IMG/VR virus record: IMGVR_UViG_3300025030_000290
Location: 1-35,345 of that record
Direction: 5' to 3' (one strand)
DNA length: 35,345 nt
Source of the DNA: a virus
Part shown: positions 28,766-35,345 of the stretch, piece by piece
How positions within the stretch are numbered: position 1 is the stretch's first letter
Layout: every line of letters begins with the position of its first letter
Made by a program: the position numbers and the translations under genes
The notes under the pieces: generated by a model
What the model saw: only the letters and a program-made list of their open reading frames with translations
The model's database searches: none
Told to the model about the DNA's origin: nothing

Positions 28766-29707
28766 CTAATACATCTGCAGGAGTCGCTCAAGCGCGATCT
28801 CCTCAACGTCGTAGCGACCCGGAGCCCAATGAGTCAAGATCGCGAGCCCTCTCCAGTAGGCGTTCAGGCCTCCATACGCATAGGCGTCAACGTGGGCAAA
28901 GAAGGCGCCCATCATGCTGACTTGGGTGATGGTGTCTGCCCCGTGGCGGAAATAATTCACGCTCTCGCGCCTATGAGAGTGAGCAAAGACGACTGACTTG
29001 GCGGTTTGCTCTGCCGCCCGGTGAATCGCGTATTTCCCGGTAACCGGCTGATTCGCGGCGTTCTGGGGTGAGTGCGTAAAGAGAACGCCTTCAAACTCAA
29101 TGCTGTCCCGGTAATCCACGACTTTGTGGACCCCCAACTCGTAGAGCCCCAGGTCCTTCACAAGATCCAGATGCTCCTTCAGTTCGGGCTTGGTTTCGAG
29201 GTAGCGGTCTAGCCTGGAACTGTGGTTGCCTTTTATGAACACCACTTCCGGCTTGTAGCCCGCGATCTTCTTGATAGGTTCAAGCAGCAACCTCAGCGCT
29301 TCCTTCCCTGCTGCTACATCCTCGATGTAGCGCCTGCCTTCCATGACTCCAGATTTGGTCAGGTCCCAATTAGAAAGTGATTCCAGCGTCACCCAATCAC
29401 CCAAGGTGATTACTCGATCCGGCCTGCGTTCCGCAATAAGCTGCCCCGCTTTCGCAAATCGAGTGAGGTCCTGATCAGGCCCTACATGAGCATCAGGCAC
29501 AACCAGAGTCGTGCTCCAGCCCTTGTCAGGTACCTTCTTCCCCAAGTACTCCTCCTTCGCCGCGCTCCATCCTCCGAAGACGCGCATGAAGGGGTCCTCA
29601 GTAACTCCGAACTCTGACCTCATTTCTCTTCGAGTGGGCAACTTGTCGTGCCTCTCCACGAACTGACCTAGCAATTCGAGGAGTTGTTCCTTCGTGTAGC
29701 TACTCAT
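28766..29707 (-). CDS. Calcineurin-like phosphoesterase with N-terminal HNH-associated repeat
   Basis: The product has 313 residues. Residues 4-56 fit the homing-endonuclease-associated repeat (PF18780 type), with a TKEQLLELL helix, LPTRREM and a MRVFGGWSAA end; this repeat usually binds DNA. Residues 66-290 form a metallophosphoesterase with D72-x-H74, D104 in LGDW, N161-H162 in KGNH, H212 in FTHS and H243-x-H245 in AHSH. The metal centre is complete, so hydrolysis of phosphodiester or phosphomonoester bonds is expected, perhaps on DNA. The ATG at 29707 has AGGAGT four bases upstream; a longer frame to 29854 overlaps the RusA gene and has no ribosome site. Confidence 0.85.
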   Translation of the reverse strand: MSSYTKEQLLELLGQFVERHDKLPTRREMRSEFGVTEDPFMRVFGGWSAAKEEYLGKKVPDKGWSTTLVVPDAHVGPDQDLTRFAKAGQLIAERRPDRVITLGDWVTLESLSNWDLTKSGVMEGRRYIEDVAAGKEALRLLLEPIKKIAGYKPEVVFIKGNHSSRLDRYLETKPELKEHLDLVKDLGLYELGVHKVVDYRDSIEFEGVLFTHSPQNAANQPVTGKYAIHRAAEQTAKSVVFAHSHRRESVNYFRHGADTITQVSMMGAFFAHVDAYAYGGLNAYWRGLAILTHWAPGRYDVEEIALERLLQMY

Positions 29708-29714
29708 TTGACTC

Positions 29715-30137
29715 CTATTCAGATGTGAATTCATCTGGGCGAAATTCAGAAATAAGAAGTTCCGCCCTTGGGTTTTCCTTGTCGATTCCGCCGAAACTGT
29801 AGGAGACATCTCGGACGATTTTGTAGTTGTCGTCGGAGATGAGACCAAGTTCAATCAAGGCATCATCCGTGAATTTCTGTACAATCGTCAGGACGTTACC
29901 CAAGTCGAACTCCCGCTTGGTCTGTGGGAACACCGTGTAGTGAAATCGAAACGGAGGTTCTCCGATTGACTGCTTCGAGCTTCTCACTTCGTCCCAGACG
30001 ATTCCCTTGTAGATGACCTTCATCTGGTTGTTGGTCATGTGGTGAAGATTCCTATATCTGTTTAGATTTAAAGGGATCTTCATGTCGGCCTTCGTCTTCC
30101 TTGGGATGGTCACCGTTAAAGGCAGGCTAATCCTCAA
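29715..30137 (-). CDS. RusA-like Holliday junction resolvase
   Basis: This 140-residue protein resembles phage RusA-family resolvases, which cut four-way DNA junctions. It shows the lead VTIPRKTKAD, LNLNRYRN, and the core with Asp78 (FDLGN), Lys88, Asp91/Asp92 (TDDAL) and Asp102/Asp103 (SDDN), and ends with NPRAELLI. In E. coli RusA the core reads DLDN; here the second Asp is Gly. The start is TTG, within the last codons of the upstream gene; an ATG 18 codons further on would delete the conserved first strand. Its neighbours (ligase-like, SbcCD) support a recombination role. Confidence 0.78.
   Translation of the reverse strand: MRISLPLTVTIPRKTKADMKIPLNLNRYRNLHHMTNNQMKVIYKGIVWDEVRSSKQSIGEPPFRFHYTVFPQTKREFDLGNVLTIVQKFTDDALIELGLISDDNYKIVRDVSYSFGGIDKENPRAELLISEFRPDEFTSE
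29717..29730. repeat. Copy 3 of the 14-bp palindromic motif, inside the RusA gene end
   Basis: Exactly the same 14 bases as 17666-17679, here overlapping the last codons and stop of the resolvase gene. The bases further on (TCATCTG) extend a second palindrome, CAGATG...CATCTG. It lies just upstream of the phosphoesterase ribosome site on the minus strand. Confidence 0.65.
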
Positions 30138-30339
30138 GGTACTTGCTCAGTTGATTTGCGATGTCCTCACAAAGATTATCGGTGACCCCATAGGTGGTTC
30201 CTTGGTGGGAACGGCAATTCCCTTCTCCGATTGCTTTGAAGTCTCGATAAAAATAACTCAACGTCTCTTCATCCTCAATCACGAATCTCACCGTGATTGG
30301 CTTGAAATCCACTTTCTCCCTCGTCACTTCCACTTTCAT
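30127..30339 (-). CDS. Small unknown protein between ligase-like and RusA genes
   Basis: The 70-residue frame starts at ATG 30339, chosen because AGGAG (30350-30346) is six bases away. An ATG two codons earlier touches the ribosome site. The product begins MKVEVTREKVDFKP and ends NQLSKYLED. It is alpha/beta, with TVRFVIEDEETLSYFYRDF in the middle. It overlaps the 3' end of the ligase-like gene by 65 bases and the RusA start by 11. No known family is recognised. Confidence 0.55.
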   Translation of the reverse strand: MKVEVTREKVDFKPITVRFVIEDEETLSYFYRDFKAIGEGNCRSHQGTTYGVTDNLCEDIANQLSKYLED

Positions 30340-31855
30340 CTTCATCTCCTTTTTCAACTGGCAAAAAGCGCCAGCCTCCATCTTCTCTTGCTTCGATCCG
30401 GTGCCCCTTGTACTTATAAGGCACCATCTCAAGCATCTCAGGTTCCCACGAAGAAGCCATGCGCTTTCGCCGCATGACTCCGCTGGGCGTGATCCAATTC
30501 CCAACTCCGTTGTGCTCAAAATGATACTTCATGTTTTTGTCGCAGATCGCACAGATCCCGGCGCCGTGTGAAGGAGCATTTGTACCCCCACAAAGGGTGC
30601 ATTTTTCCAGCCGGGTATGTTTTCCGTGCAGCCTGTACCTGCGCCAAGGGGCTTTGTCCCATAGGATTTTCCTACCAACACCAATCTTGGTCCCACCTAC
30701 TTTCAGGTAGAGAAATTCCAAGAGCTTGCCTTTCACCGGCTTGATGTTGTTCAGGAGAGCGTTGTCCCTCCCTGAGAAGCTGAAAGCTACCCGGAAGAGA
30801 TCCCCGTTGAACCAAACTAAAAACCCTTTGGCGTGCCCGCCTACGTGCCAGAATCGTTCTACGATTCCTACGGTCACCCTGACCTCAACCACATGAGATT
30901 CGCCGGTTCTCAAGGTATCCTGGTCGGTCAGCGCTAGGTACTCGCAATCCGAATGCTCCATGACCTTGACGACTTCACCCAAAACTTCCTCTTCCCGAAA
31001 TGCGAGGCCCACATAATTGGGCGTGATCTGCGTGAGCAGGTTGTTATCCTGAAATTTTCGCAGCTTCTCTACTCGCTCGGGAAACGGAGTTGTAGGCTTG
31101 CCGTTGAGGGTCAAGGCAAACTCCTTCAGATTGTCGAAATAATCAACTGGGTGAAACACGGTCCTTCCTGAATTCAACCGCCCCGCGTAGCCCGTCAGGG
31201 TAAATCGTGGAGTTCCGATGTACTGCATGTCCACAGGAAGTAATGGCTTGATGCTAACTAATTTTCCTGCCACACATTCAAATGACCTAGATGATCTAGG
31301 CTCCCTAGAAACCACCCCCAGCCTCATGTCCGGGGCCATGACAGCGGAGATAGCGACCGGGTAATTCAGCGCAGCGAAGCTTGTCTGGAGGGCCTCAGGT
31401 GCCTTATAAATTTCGAAGGTGTTAACCACACCAAGGTCGAGCGAGGTCTGAATCTCCATGACGGGTAATCCTTTAGTAAAACTTTTTGAAACTAGCGAGA
31501 GGTAGAACTCACGGTCGATCCTGCCGGTCTTAGCCAGGAACTTGATGAGTTCTGATTCCCTCGTGCGAGTCACAGTTTTCCGATTGAAGAACCTGACGAC
31601 TTCCAGAAATCCACCGAAAGATGCCTCAGAGATTTCTAGTTCCGGGACTGAGTGGTACCTGGAGTCGTCGATGGCCTTGAACCGAAAATTCAACATGCAG
31701 AACCAGCAGGCGAAAGTGAGTAGCCATTCGGATTCTTCTGGAAGCTTCAGGACCCCCTCAGCGAATTGCTTCCTCTTTTCCTTGGGCGACCTGAGTTCAA
31801 CCAAGGAATTCCGGAAGTTCAAAACTTCTTCGATGTTGGAAAGTTCGATTTTCAT
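30275..31855 (-). CDS. DNA-ligase-like protein with degenerate catalytic motifs and zinc ribbon
   Basis: This 526-residue protein follows the layout of phage ATP-dependent DNA ligases. It has a helical DNA-binding lead (1-160, with SKSFTKGLPVMEIQ), a nucleotidyltransferase-like core (165-330) and an OB-fold-like part (330-400, with KGFLVWFNG and IGVGRKILWDK). The catalytic motifs are missing, however. Where KxDGxR (adenylated Lys) is expected, I read AVMAPDMR (171-178). DGEL is TGYAGRL, EGhhhK is EYLALT (305-310), and the motif V lysines are Glu and Arg. A zinc ribbon (Cys419/422/435/438) and an acidic tail follow. It could be an inactive ligase homologue that binds nicked or broken DNA. The fold assignment is by eye. 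It is co-translated with the SbcC-like gene (ATGA overlap). Confidence 0.5.
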   Translation of the reverse strand: MKIELSNIEEVLNFRNSLVELRSPKEKRKQFAEGVLKLPEESEWLLTFACWFCMLNFRFKAIDDSRYHSVPELEISEASFGGFLEVVRFFNRKTVTRTRESELIKFLAKTGRIDREFYLSLVSKSFTKGLPVMEIQTSLDLGVVNTFEIYKAPEALQTSFAALNYPVAISAVMAPDMRLGVVSREPRSSRSFECVAGKLVSIKPLLPVDMQYIGTPRFTLTGYAGRLNSGRTVFHPVDYFDNLKEFALTLNGKPTTPFPERVEKLRKFQDNNLLTQITPNYVGLAFREEEVLGEVVKVMEHSDCEYLALTDQDTLRTGESHVVEVRVTVGIVERFWHVGGHAKGFLVWFNGDLFRVAFSFSGRDNALLNNIKPVKGKLLEFLYLKVGGTKIGVGRKILWDKAPWRRYRLHGKHTRLEKCTLCGGTNAPSHGAGICAICDKNMKYHFEHNGVGNWITPSGVMRRKRMASSWEPEMLEMVPYKYKGHRIEAREDGGWRFLPVEKGDEDESGSDEGESGFQANHGEIRD

Positions 31856-34086
31856 TGCTGAATTGATGTCGTTCCATCCTCGTGTTTAGTAGCTCTGATT
31901 ATGGTTGTGTAGGTCATCGGCAGCGCCAGTTCGGAGTGGGCGATTATGGCGATGCAGCGACCTTGCTCCTTCAGGTAGCCCAGCACCTCAAAAAGACCAG
32001 CCTTCCCTTCTTCATCTAGTGACCCGAAAATTTCATCGAGGCAGAGAACGTTAAAAGAAGAGGAACCTGTGGCCTCCAAAATTTCAAGAGTAGCGAAGAG
32101 GCAGGACATCTTGACCCTCGCCTTCTCACCCTCCGACCAGTTCGCCCACTTAACCGTCTTGTGACTGTCAGTGACCGTGAATTGGACTTCACCATCTTCA
32201 TCAAGATAGAAAGCGCACGCGATTCTGCCTGAGGTAATCATCTCCGAATACTTTCGGATCAGGATGTTGAAGCTCCTCAGGAACCTGTCGATTTTCCTAA
32301 CTCGATAACCCTTCGGCCCGAGGATTCCCAACCAATTCCTGATGTCCTCCAAGGTACTTTCTGCTTGAAATAATTCATTTCTTGAAGCGGCCAACCGGAG
32401 CAACAAATCTCGATTGTTTTCCTCGACTTGGCGGTTGAGTTCTTTTCTCGCTCGCGCCAATGCGTTGTGGTCCTTGACCTTAGTAACTTCAGTATCAATT
32501 TGGGAAACCTCGTTTTTTACTGAAGTCAACTTAGAAGCAACGTCGCCCAATGTCTGATCAAGCTTAGCCAAAACCAGAGGATCTGCATCAACCACAGGAC
32601 CAACCTCAGCCTTCAGCCGGTTCAACTCGTTCTGCTTCTGCTCGAACTGCAGGTGCTCCATCCCGATTGATACCGTTTCCTGCAAGTTCAATCGAATCCG
32701 GCGCTTGCGATCCTCGAAGCAACTCACGTCCATCTGAGCTTGGTTACCGTCGATCCTGGTGTCGGGGTTGGCTTCGAACTTCTCAAGCTCCTGTGTCTTC
32801 CTGGTGATTTCCTGCCAAACCTTCTGGATGACTCGGTACTTTGAGAGGGAGGCTTCACATTTTTCAATGAGGTCTGAATCCTCAGCAATCTGGTTCCTGA
32901 GATCCAGGATCTGCATTTGGAACTGGTCAGGGTCAACTCGATGCCCACAGGTAGGGCAATCGCCCCTCTTGGAGGAATCTTCGAGGCTTACGACTTCGTT
33001 TTGTTTCTGCCCCCGCTCCGTCTGCTTTCGGGTCAACAGCGCCTCGATCTTCTTCAGTTGCTCCTCAGCGAACTCCAGTTCAACTTCAGGAGTTTCCAAT
33101 TTGGAAAGTTCTTCCCTCAATGGAAGCAGCCGTTCGATCTGAGGCTTGGCCTTTTCGTACCTAGCGAGAACCCCTTGAGCCTCTTGAAGCTTGGATTCAG
33201 TGAACCTGAGTTCTTCCTGAAGCTTAGTTGCTCTGCTTTGTGCGTCCTCTTTCGACATTTCCGGGATTTGGAAATCCTTCAGTTCAGCTTCGATTTCCTG
33301 AATCCTCTCTTGTGTCGCTTGGTTCACCTCTGCTTTTTTAAGCTTTTCTGTGAGGTCGCTTCGATCTCTGGAAAGTTCCAGTTGTTGGGCTTTCAAATTA
33401 TCAACTTCAACCCAAAGATTCTTCAGTCGCTCCTCAAGCTCAGCAACCGCTACTTCCTCAAGTTCAGGCTGGGTTTGAACCACGCCCTGCTCCATCATCT
33501 CAATGTTTTTCTGAAGCATCAGGATTTTGCCGTGCTTTCCTGCAAGAGCTTTTTCCTTCTCCTTCATTCGGTCGAATTCTGCGTCGAGTTCATCCAGGCG
33601 ATTGACTCTGGAGATGAACTTTTTGCGCTCTCCATCTGAAGAGGATTCGAGCAAATTCAAGGAGCTTTTCGGGCTCTGGTAAACGAGGTCTACGAAAGTC
33701 GAATAGTCGGTTTCGAGGACCTCTTCGAGGAACTTCAGATTGTCCGGGATTCTCTTCAGGTGCCTTTTATGCTTCGCGCCGTTGACCTCTTCATAAATCT
33801 CGATCTCGCCGGTCTTCTTCGAGTTCTTGACGTACCACTCGGAAGCGCCTTTGGTGAACCAGATTTCGATCTCATAAGGCTGGCCTGTGATCTCGTTATT
33901 CACGTCGTCTACTTTGGTGCCCTTCGGGTTCTTGTTGAACAGGCCTTGGATCAGCGTCAGGAAAAGGCTCGTCTTGCTGGCGCCGTTGTTGCCGATGACC
34001 GAGTGAATCCCATTCTCGAACCTGAAGTCGAGGTACTTGTAGGCGAAGCAGTCTCGGGCCACTACTCGGGTGAACTCGACTACCAC
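31852..34086 (-). CDS. sbcC: SbcC/Rad50-like recombination ATPase (T4 gp46-like)
   Basis: This 744-residue SMC-type ATPase works with a Mre11/SbcD nuclease to open and trim DNA ends. The Walker A motif is GNNGASKTS (32-40), with Ser in place of the usual last Gly. Long coiled coils flank a zinc hook, CPTC at Cys377/Cys380. Near residue 650 is the signature WSEGEK. Walker B CLDE with the SLD D-loop follows around 680, and the H-loop IAHS near the end. Its size is like that of phage homologues. The start is GTG, with AGGAGG seven bases upstream, inside the end of the zinc-finger gene. The partner nuclease is encoded two genes upstream. Confidence 0.92.
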   Translation of the reverse strand: MVVEFTRVVARDCFAYKYLDFRFENGIHSVIGNNGASKTSLFLTLIQGLFNKNPKGTKVDDVNNEITGQPYEIEIWFTKGASEWYVKNSKKTGEIEIYEEVNGAKHKRHLKRIPDNLKFLEEVLETDYSTFVDLVYQSPKSSLNLLESSSDGERKKFISRVNRLDELDAEFDRMKEKEKALAGKHGKILMLQKNIEMMEQGVVQTQPELEEVAVAELEERLKNLWVEVDNLKAQQLELSRDRSDLTEKLKKAEVNQATQERIQEIEAELKDFQIPEMSKEDAQSRATKLQEELRFTESKLQEAQGVLARYEKAKPQIERLLPLREELSKLETPEVELEFAEEQLKKIEALLTRKQTERGQKQNEVVSLEDSSKRGDCPTCGHRVDPDQFQMQILDLRNQIAEDSDLIEKCEASLSKYRVIQKVWQEITRKTQELEKFEANPDTRIDGNQAQMDVSCFEDRKRRIRLNLQETVSIGMEHLQFEQKQNELNRLKAEVGPVVDADPLVLAKLDQTLGDVASKLTSVKNEVSQIDTEVTKVKDHNALARARKELNRQVEENNRDLLLRLAASRNELFQAESTLEDIRNWLGILGPKGYRVRKIDRFLRSFNILIRKYSEMITSGRIACAFYLDEDGEVQFTVTDSHKTVKWANWSEGEKARVKMSCLFATLEILEATGSSSFNVLCLDEIFGSLDEEGKAGLFEVLGYLKEQGRCIAIIAHSELALPMTYTTIIRATKHEDGTTSIQQ

Positions 34087-34262: not shown

Positions 34263-34510
34263 TCCTCTTCCTCCTGAGGAATCGTGTAGGATTTCTCCTT
34301 AACGACCCTGCCTACGAAGAGGCCAAGGAAAAGGACTTGGAAGGCGAACCCCCTCAATGAGGGAATAAAGAGGAAGGGGAAAATCATGTCATCCAGGTAG
34401 CCCATCGCGGAAAACTCGAAGTCAATCCCAAAGAGCCTTAACCTGAGAACTACGGTCCTATTGGGCTCGTTTAAGGAACCTTCGATTTCAAATAAGTCTG
34501 AGAATTTCAA
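34253..34510 (-). CDS. Small membrane protein between the SbcD-like and SbcC-like genes
   Basis: The 85-residue product contains a hydrophobic block of about 35 residues (MGYLDDMIFPFLF and FAFQVLFLGLFVG) that could form one or two membrane segments. The N-terminal third is soluble and the end is acidic, QEEEEWD. The start is TTG, overlapping the SbcD-like stop as TTGA, with a good AAGGAGG site. Membrane proteins inside this recombination cluster are unexpected. A holin-like or envelope-anchoring role cannot be excluded. No family is recognised. Confidence 0.55.
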   Translation of the reverse strand: MKFSDLFEIEGSLNEPNRTVVLRLRLFGIDFEFSAMGYLDDMIFPFLFIPSLRGFAFQVLFLGLFVGRVVKEKSYTIPQEEEEWD

Positions 34511-35345
34511 GCTGCCTCCTTCCAGACCGTCATCATCCGGTCGATTTTAGGTTCGTCGTACCCAAGTTCCTTCAGGTACATAGCCAGTTCCTCGTCGAGC
34601 GAGGCGTTGATGATTTCTTCCTGCTCTCCATTTTCCTGAACCAGCACCTGCAAAGCCTCAGGCACCTTCACCAGCTTGACATTGGATTGGGGCGCTACGA
34701 TGGTCTTCAACTCAGGTACGGTCCCGGTGACCTCGATCCGGTAGAAGTCAGTCGCATTCAACTCAGGAAATTCTTCATCTGCTCGAATTCGGATCTGAAT
34801 TAGTGAGGGCAAATTCGTAGCCAGCCTCTCGTACTTCGCAGTGCCCTTGTCAACGGTCAGGAGGAGAACTCCGGTATCGACCGAAGTTTGAAACTCCTTG
34901 TTGATCGGGTGGTTCGTGTAGATGAGCTTGCCTAGTGTGAGGGCCGAATGTATATCGCCTGCCACAGCAAGATCGAAAGGCTCCAGCAAATGATCGACAT
35001 CAATTTCCTCCTTGACGAACTGATTGTAGCTGCAGCAGAAATGCGAGATCAGGATGTTCAGCTTGGTGCCGGTTACTGAGGGACCTTGGTAGGTCCCGAG
35101 ATCGCAGTGGCTCAAGAAATGGAGCGTGCAATCCTCTTCCTGGATCAGGTGCGTCCAAGGCTTCGGCTGATAATTGACCTTGATCGTCTTGTCCTTGCCC
35201 ATGTCGAGGTGCCCGAAGGTGTCCTTGCCTGGTCCGATACTTTCGTGGTTGCCTCCTATCAGGTAGACTTCGACACCCGCTTCGCGGCACATACGGAAGA
35301 AGATGAAAGCAAGCTCCTGCTCTTCAAGTTCGGGTTCACATTTCT
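34507..35345 (-). CDS. sbcD: SbcD/Mre11-like nuclease (T4 gp47-like), 5' end outside the window
   Basis: The reading frame is open to the right edge, so at least 279 residues are seen and the true start lies beyond 35345. The visible part has the GNHES motif of Mre11-type phosphoesterases, the LISHFCC motif His and the AGDIH motif, which replaces the usual GHxH pattern. The first metal motif (DxH) must lie outside the window. The C-terminal half resembles the capping and DNA-binding part. SbcD/Mre11 supplies the nuclease to the SbcC-like ATPase encoded downstream. An ATG at 35292 exists but would remove the core strand before GNHE, so it is not the real start. Confidence 0.85.
   Translation of the reverse strand, partial: KCEPELEEQELAFIFFRMCREAGVEVYLIGGNHESIGPGKDTFGHLDMGKDKTIKVNYQPKPWTHLIQEEDCTLHFLSHCDLGTYQGPSVTGTKLNILISHFCCSYNQFVKEEIDVDHLLEPFDLAVAGDIHSALTLGKLIYTNHPINKEFQTSVDTGVLLLTVDKGTAKYERLATNLPSLIQIRIRADEEFPELNATDFYRIEVTGTVPELKTIVAPQSNVKLVKVPEALQVLVQENGEQEEIINASLDEELAMYLKELGYDEPKIDRMMTVWKEAA

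Follow-up and report, generated by a model that had tools for sequence, protein, structure and literature searches.

The question raised by this locus is what may be done by a phage protein that has the layout of an ATP-dependent DNA ligase and lacks the residues on which catalysis by such enzymes depends. The gene lies in a genome fragment of 35,345 nt (IMG/VR record IMGVR_UViG_3300025030_000290, positions 1–35,345), hereafter the window, and its product is referred to as the pseudo-ligase. Homologues were found on four other IMG/VR contigs. These represent two further lineages, whose proteins share 95% and 91% identity with that of the window; the window protein and these two homologues constitute the family considered here. 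Two further scans of IMG/VR returned the same four contigs again, and relatives were absent from the INPHARED, PLSDB, and GTDB genomes and from 15 other ligase-bearing virus records. The known range of the family is narrow, three close lineages only, and the homologue contigs may stem from related samples, because their names bear neighbouring sample numbers. The features of the locus are listed in Table 1.

Table 1. Features of the pseudo-ligase gene and its neighbours in the window, with the residues of the 526-aa protein to which they correspond
Feature	Residues	Coordinates	Strand	Evidence or remark
Pseudo-ligase gene		30275..31855	-	526 aa; ORF, homologues, ligase homology
Helical lead domain (counterpart of ligase N-terminal DNA-binding domain)	1-152	31400..31855	-	profile, pairwise z
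Degenerate nucleotidyltransferase-like domain	153-318	30902..31399	-	profile score, MAFFT alignment
Motif I counterpart, SAVMAPDMR	170-178	31322..31348	-	alignments; ligases EKLDGLR
Motif III counterpart, FTLTGYAGRLNSGRT	218-232	31160..31204	-	alignment
Motif IIIa counterpart, YFDN	239-242	31130..31141	-	alignment; Asp241 retained
Motif IV counterpart, CEYLALTD	304-311	30923..30946	-	alignment
Motif V likely counterpart, VVEVRV	322-327	30875..30892	-	alignments; register uncertain
OB-like domain	319-405	30641..30901	-	colinear in alignments; pairwise z
Cys4 motif, C419-x2-C422-x12-C435-x2-C438	416-441	30533..30610	-	alignment
Small extra C-terminal region and acidic tail	446-526	30278..30520	-	dN/dS, charge
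SbcC-like gene, upstream		31852..34086	-	phrog_77, E=4.9e-70
SbcD-like gene, cut by window end		34507..35343	-	phrog_100, E=4.6e-12
RusA-like Holliday junction resolvase gene, downstream		29715..30137	-	phrog_1682, E=1.7e-29

Searches with the 526-aa protein gave no match in Pfam at E<=1, a single match in PHROGs (E=0.23), no ligase match in NCBIfam, and no meaningful relative among PDB sequences. HMMER thus returned no ligase from any of these four collections, and the cut-offs of the curated ligase family models (Pfam, NCBIfam, and PHROG) were not reached. A role in defence was also considered and set aside, PADLOC giving no match.

Ligase ancestry, which had been proposed in the first-pass annotation, was upheld by profile comparison. 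The first ligase profile was made from 11 intact phage ATP ligases, namely the ligase of a homologue-bearing record, a close relative of it, and nine diverse phage ligases. Using hhalign, the profile of the three family sequences matched this ligase profile with a probability of 91% and a score of 55.8 over 360 colinear columns, spanning pseudo-ligase residues 9–386. The window sequence alone scored 43.9, as compared with 26.2 or less for 100 shuffled sequences and 15.9 for the reversed sequence. When 172 ORF products of this and other phages were ranked against the ligase profile, the 4 true ligase ORFs came on top, followed by the 3 family members (scores of 53.6, 43.9, and 38.4); the next protein scored 25.8. 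With a second ligase profile of 18 sequences, the pseudo-ligase scored 40.7, whereas its shuffles did not exceed 27.2; hmmsearch gave E=5e-5, a value that refers to a single comparison. Identity to the ligases in the alignments was approximately 14–19%, and G129, R178, D241, R261, L265, D400, and K401 are common to the pseudo-ligase and all or nearly all of the ligases in the MAFFT alignment. As judged from sequence comparison, the assignment of the pseudo-ligase as a distant relative of ATP-dependent DNA ligases is well supported.

The individual domains were also compared. A helical lead domain and an OB-like part had both been claimed for this protein; the former was supported by the score of residues 1–175, and the latter mainly by its position. 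Residues 1–175 scored 24.9 (shuffle maximum, 20.1) and residues 160–285 scored 24.1 (shuffle maximum, 19.8), and residues 1–150 alone scored 19.6, below the shuffle maximum of 20.7. Pairwise comparison of the lead domain with ligases gave z values up to 4.85. For the OB part (residues 285–410), the score as a separate profile was not above that of column shuffles, and pairwise comparison with ligase OB domains gave z values up to 4.0, with 2.5 for a C-terminal control region. Because its own profile score stays within the shuffles, the OB assignment is based mainly on its colinear position and is the least secure element of the case for ligase homology. Structure prediction by AlphaFold gave no usable model from the three family members alone (pLDDT 29.2); upon adding ten ligase rows, a model of pLDDT 38.6 was obtained, in which the lead domain contained helices and the OB part showed a beta pattern. 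The top Foldseek match of the latter model was T4 ligase with DNA (6dt1, E=0.02), a weak match biased by the ligase rows. Since these rows were supplied and the confidence of the model was low, this match is taken as consistency and not as proof.

The loss of the catalytic motifs, the central claim of the first-pass annotation, was supported, although single motif residues may persist. KxDG was absent from all three family proteins and present in all 18 intact ligases checked; likewise, DG[E/D] was absent from the three and [D/E]GE was present in the 18. For motifs I and III, the loss can be stated without recourse to any alignment, because KxDG and DG[E/D] occur nowhere in the family proteins. 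In motif I, EKLDGLR of the ligases is replaced by VMAPDMR, in which the lysine has become Met173 and Arg178 is retained. Motif III DGEL corresponds to TGYA or NSGR, the register being uncertain, and the acidic residue is gone in both registers; in addition, motifs III and IIIa lie closer together than in most of the ligases compared, by roughly 20 residues or more. Motif IV EGxxxK has become EYLALT, with loss of the glycine and lysine, and motif V KxK has most likely become ExR, although the register is uncertain. In the OB part, GSGF is replaced by AFSF, and motif VI RxDK by LxDK, with loss of the arginine. Judging from these alignments, the motif residues that may persist are Arg178 (motif I), Asp241 (motif IIIa), Glu305 (motif IV), and Asp400 and Lys401 (motif VI).

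The substitutions were identical across the three lineages, except at residue 175, a conservation that had been named as a point to check. The possibility of a moved active-site lysine was examined: residues 140–230 share only Lys151, Lys198, and Lys203 among the members, none at the motif I position. Between residues 151 and 198, no lysine is shared by the whole family, which leaves no candidate for the covalent nucleophile at the motif I position. Homologues carrying an intact KxDG and acting as ligases were looked for as well, and this possibility was ruled out, all family members being devoid of both KxDG and DG[E/D]. The conclusion that catalysis has been lost in the family is well supported by these sequences.

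Behind the OB-like domain, the pseudo-ligase carries additional parts. The four cysteines of the Cys4 motif were invariant in all family members, the intact ligases had no counterpart, and the region gave a weak match to DZR_2 (E=0.061). The motif is probably a zinc ribbon, in agreement with the added zinc ribbon that had been suggested. The C-terminal region that follows (residues 446–526) evolves fastest, with dN/dS values of 0.19–0.29, and its last 28 residues (499–526) form an acidic tail with a net charge of -8.

Pairwise dN/dS values of the pseudo-ligase were 0.11–0.14, lying between those of the intact ligase (0.10) and SbcC (0.16). Constraint extends over the whole protein and is loosest at the extreme C-terminus. 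The intact reading frame and low dN/dS indicate that the pseudo-ligase is selected as a protein and is not a decaying gene.

An intact ATP-dependent ligase was also encoded in all four homologue-bearing records (G001–G004), approximately 12–14 kb upstream of the pseudo-ligase gene, in a module together with DNA polymerase, exonuclease, and helicase. This ligase is 466 aa long as read, its lead, nucleotidyltransferase, and OB domains were recognised by Pfam, and it matched phrog_114 with E=8.5e-101. No intact ligase was present in the window, because the corresponding place would fall beyond its right end. The possibility that these are phages without another ligase was ruled out by the four records, and the presence of a separate intact ligase strengthens the case for a pseudo-ligase. 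An origin by recent duplication from the ligase that the phage itself carries is disfavoured, because that ligase was among the weakest pairwise matches to the lead domain.

The gene order in the window was SbcD-SbcC-pseudo-ligase-RusA. Translational coupling to the SbcC-like gene and closeness to a RusA-like gene had been noted in the first-pass annotation. The latter was supported by the phrog_1682 match downstream; as for the former, the SbcC stop codon and the pseudo-ligase start codon share the sequence ATGA both in the window and in L001, from one homologue lineage, but in L002, from the other, a gene for a 215-aa protein (L002:4354-5001) lies between SbcC and the pseudo-ligase, overlapping the start of the latter. 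Strict adjacency to SbcC is therefore not conserved. The 215-aa protein is unrelated to the pseudo-ligase and gave no match in family searches. In Vibrio phage D254, which is T5-like, the order is SbcD, SbcC, a short gene, RusA, exonuclease, and dUTPase, with no ligase-like gene between SbcC and RusA; two T5-like phages and Rhizobium phage RHEph10 had no annotated gene of matching size beside SbcC.

Other genes were observed in these regions. In L001, a gene with an HNH-like motif (L001:6424-7092), probably a homing endonuclease gene, is situated between the pseudo-ligase and RusA. Directly after RusA in the window, a single frame (28766-29854, minus strand) combines a homing-endonuclease-associated repeat (PF18780) with a metallophosphoesterase domain. 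Record G001 also encodes a 669-aa protein (L037:12285-14294) that matched phrog_1735 with E=8.5e-283, a family with no assigned function. Its relatives in Caulobacter phiCbK-like phages and in Serratia phages are approximately 55% and 52% identical to it, respectively, an unusual degree of conservation for phage proteins.

Several explanations are possible for these observations. Chance resemblance to ligase profiles in a fast-evolving phage protein, with no true homology, would agree with the failure of HMMER to find a ligase in Pfam, PHROGs, NCBIfam, or PDB, with the low identity to ligases, and with an OB part that alone scores like shuffled sequence. However, the colinear match over the full length lies far above the shuffled, reversed, and real-protein controls, and the near-invariant positions listed above are retained, making such a resemblance very improbable. 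If the homology is real, the ligase pocket might have been re-used for a different, undescribed activity. The strong purifying selection, the arginine of motif I, the aspartate of motif IIIa, and perhaps the glutamate of motif IV would be in keeping with a changed enzyme, but three close sequences define no new cluster of catalytic-looking conserved residues, and no lysine at the motif I position could act as the covalent nucleophile; we give this explanation hardly any weight.

Two non-catalytic roles that differ from the one preferred here have also to be weighed. The protein might hold nicks or 5′-phosphate ends and exclude the host or phage ligase, thereby preserving programmed nicks or recombination intermediates. 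A ligase body without the chemistry would be a natural competitor at nicks, ligatable nicks are kept in the virion DNA of some phages, including T5, phiKMV-like phages, and tf (PMC3517423), and the SbcD-SbcC-RusA order resembles that of the T5-like Vibrio phage. Nevertheless, nicked DNA in the source phage would be purely hypothetical, the homologue-bearing phages have retained an intact ligase, and the phosphate-contacting residues are gone, so that protection of nicks appears unlikely. The absence of these residues would instead suit a protein that serves SbcCD or RusA as an adaptor or regulator, with the ligase fold as a mere scaffold, contacts made through the putative zinc ribbon and the tail, and DNA bound in a manner not resembling that of ligases. 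The operon position with its ATGA coupling and the invariance of the four cysteines point in the same direction. Against this stand the purely putative nature of any contact with SbcCD or RusA, the unrelated gene separating SbcC and the pseudo-ligase in L002, and the fastest evolution being found in the C-terminal region; we consider an adaptor of this kind no more probable than the protection of nicks.

The explanation we prefer, and regard as probable though well short of certain, is that the protein is a highly diverged, full-length relative of T4-type ligases, non-catalytic and retained as a binder of DNA structures in phage recombination and repair. The loss of the active site, the selection on the protein, the repair genes beside it, and the separate normal ligase together suggest a DNA-binding helper and not an enzyme. 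The protein would act as a nick-, end-, or branch-binding factor, and the gene context suggests a possible partnership with SbcCD or RusA. In the mechanism proposed, a ligase ancestor would have given rise to a pseudo-ligase unable to self-adenylate or to seal DNA. The inherited ligase clamp and the Cys4 zinc ribbon would hold nicked, broken, or branched DNA, SbcCD and RusA would process the DNA thus held, and the separate intact phage ligase would seal the product; contacts with proteins may be a function of the acidic tail. The motif V lysines and GSGF, which contact DNA or phosphate in ligases, are gone, and ligase-like DNA binding can therefore not be assumed. The more specific proposal, that a natural and fixed pseudo-ligase, present together with an active ligase, serves as a non-catalytic junction reader in concert with SbcCD and RusA, and is the first to be described in a phage, is put forward tentatively, as a possibility that we would not quite call probable.

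Compared with T4-type ATP-dependent ligases (phrog_114; PF04675, PF01068, and PF14743), the pseudo-ligase has the same domain order and three-domain body length, aligns colinearly by profile over the whole length, and retains structural positions. It differs from them in having no nucleophilic lysine, DGE, motif IV and V lysines, or motif VI arginine, in the shortened III–IIIa segment, the extra Cys4 motif, and the acidic tail, and in being missed by every ligase family model. In the NAD-dependent ligase LigA, a Cys4 zinc finger follows the OB domain, the same placement as that of the Cys4 motif of the pseudo-ligase, with a different spacing of the cysteines. Unlike LigA, the pseudo-ligase has a body that aligns with ATP ligases, and no sequence match to LigA was found. 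Another observation concerns the intact ligase (L008:1042-2439), whose lead domain matched DUF6433 (PF20025) and phrog_461, phage proteins with no assigned function. These proteins resemble only the lead domain of the intact ligase and may be stand-alone ligase lead domains; the pseudo-ligase itself gave no match to either model.

Kinases and proteases offer well-known cases of pseudoenzymes. A search of the open-access literature revealed no description of a phage DNA ligase retained after losing catalysis, in agreement with what had been stated in the first-pass annotation. In a catalytically dead form, human Lig4 promotes end joining and also stimulates Lig3 (PMC9638927), so that a structural role for an inactive ligase is plausible in general. 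The inactivated DNA ligase IV (K273A, PMC9638927) resembles the pseudo-ligase in that a ligase body acts without catalysis, as is proposed here; however, K273A was engineered by a single substitution in a eukaryotic enzyme, whereas the loss in the pseudo-ligase is natural, fixed, and spans all the motifs. If the preferred explanation is correct, the ligase clamp would be useful as a pure binder of DNA structures in recombination. The pseudo-ligase would then parallel, in nature, the dead Lig4 that was obtained by engineering and still contributes to repair, and a simple phage system would become available for testing what a ligase body does apart from catalysis.
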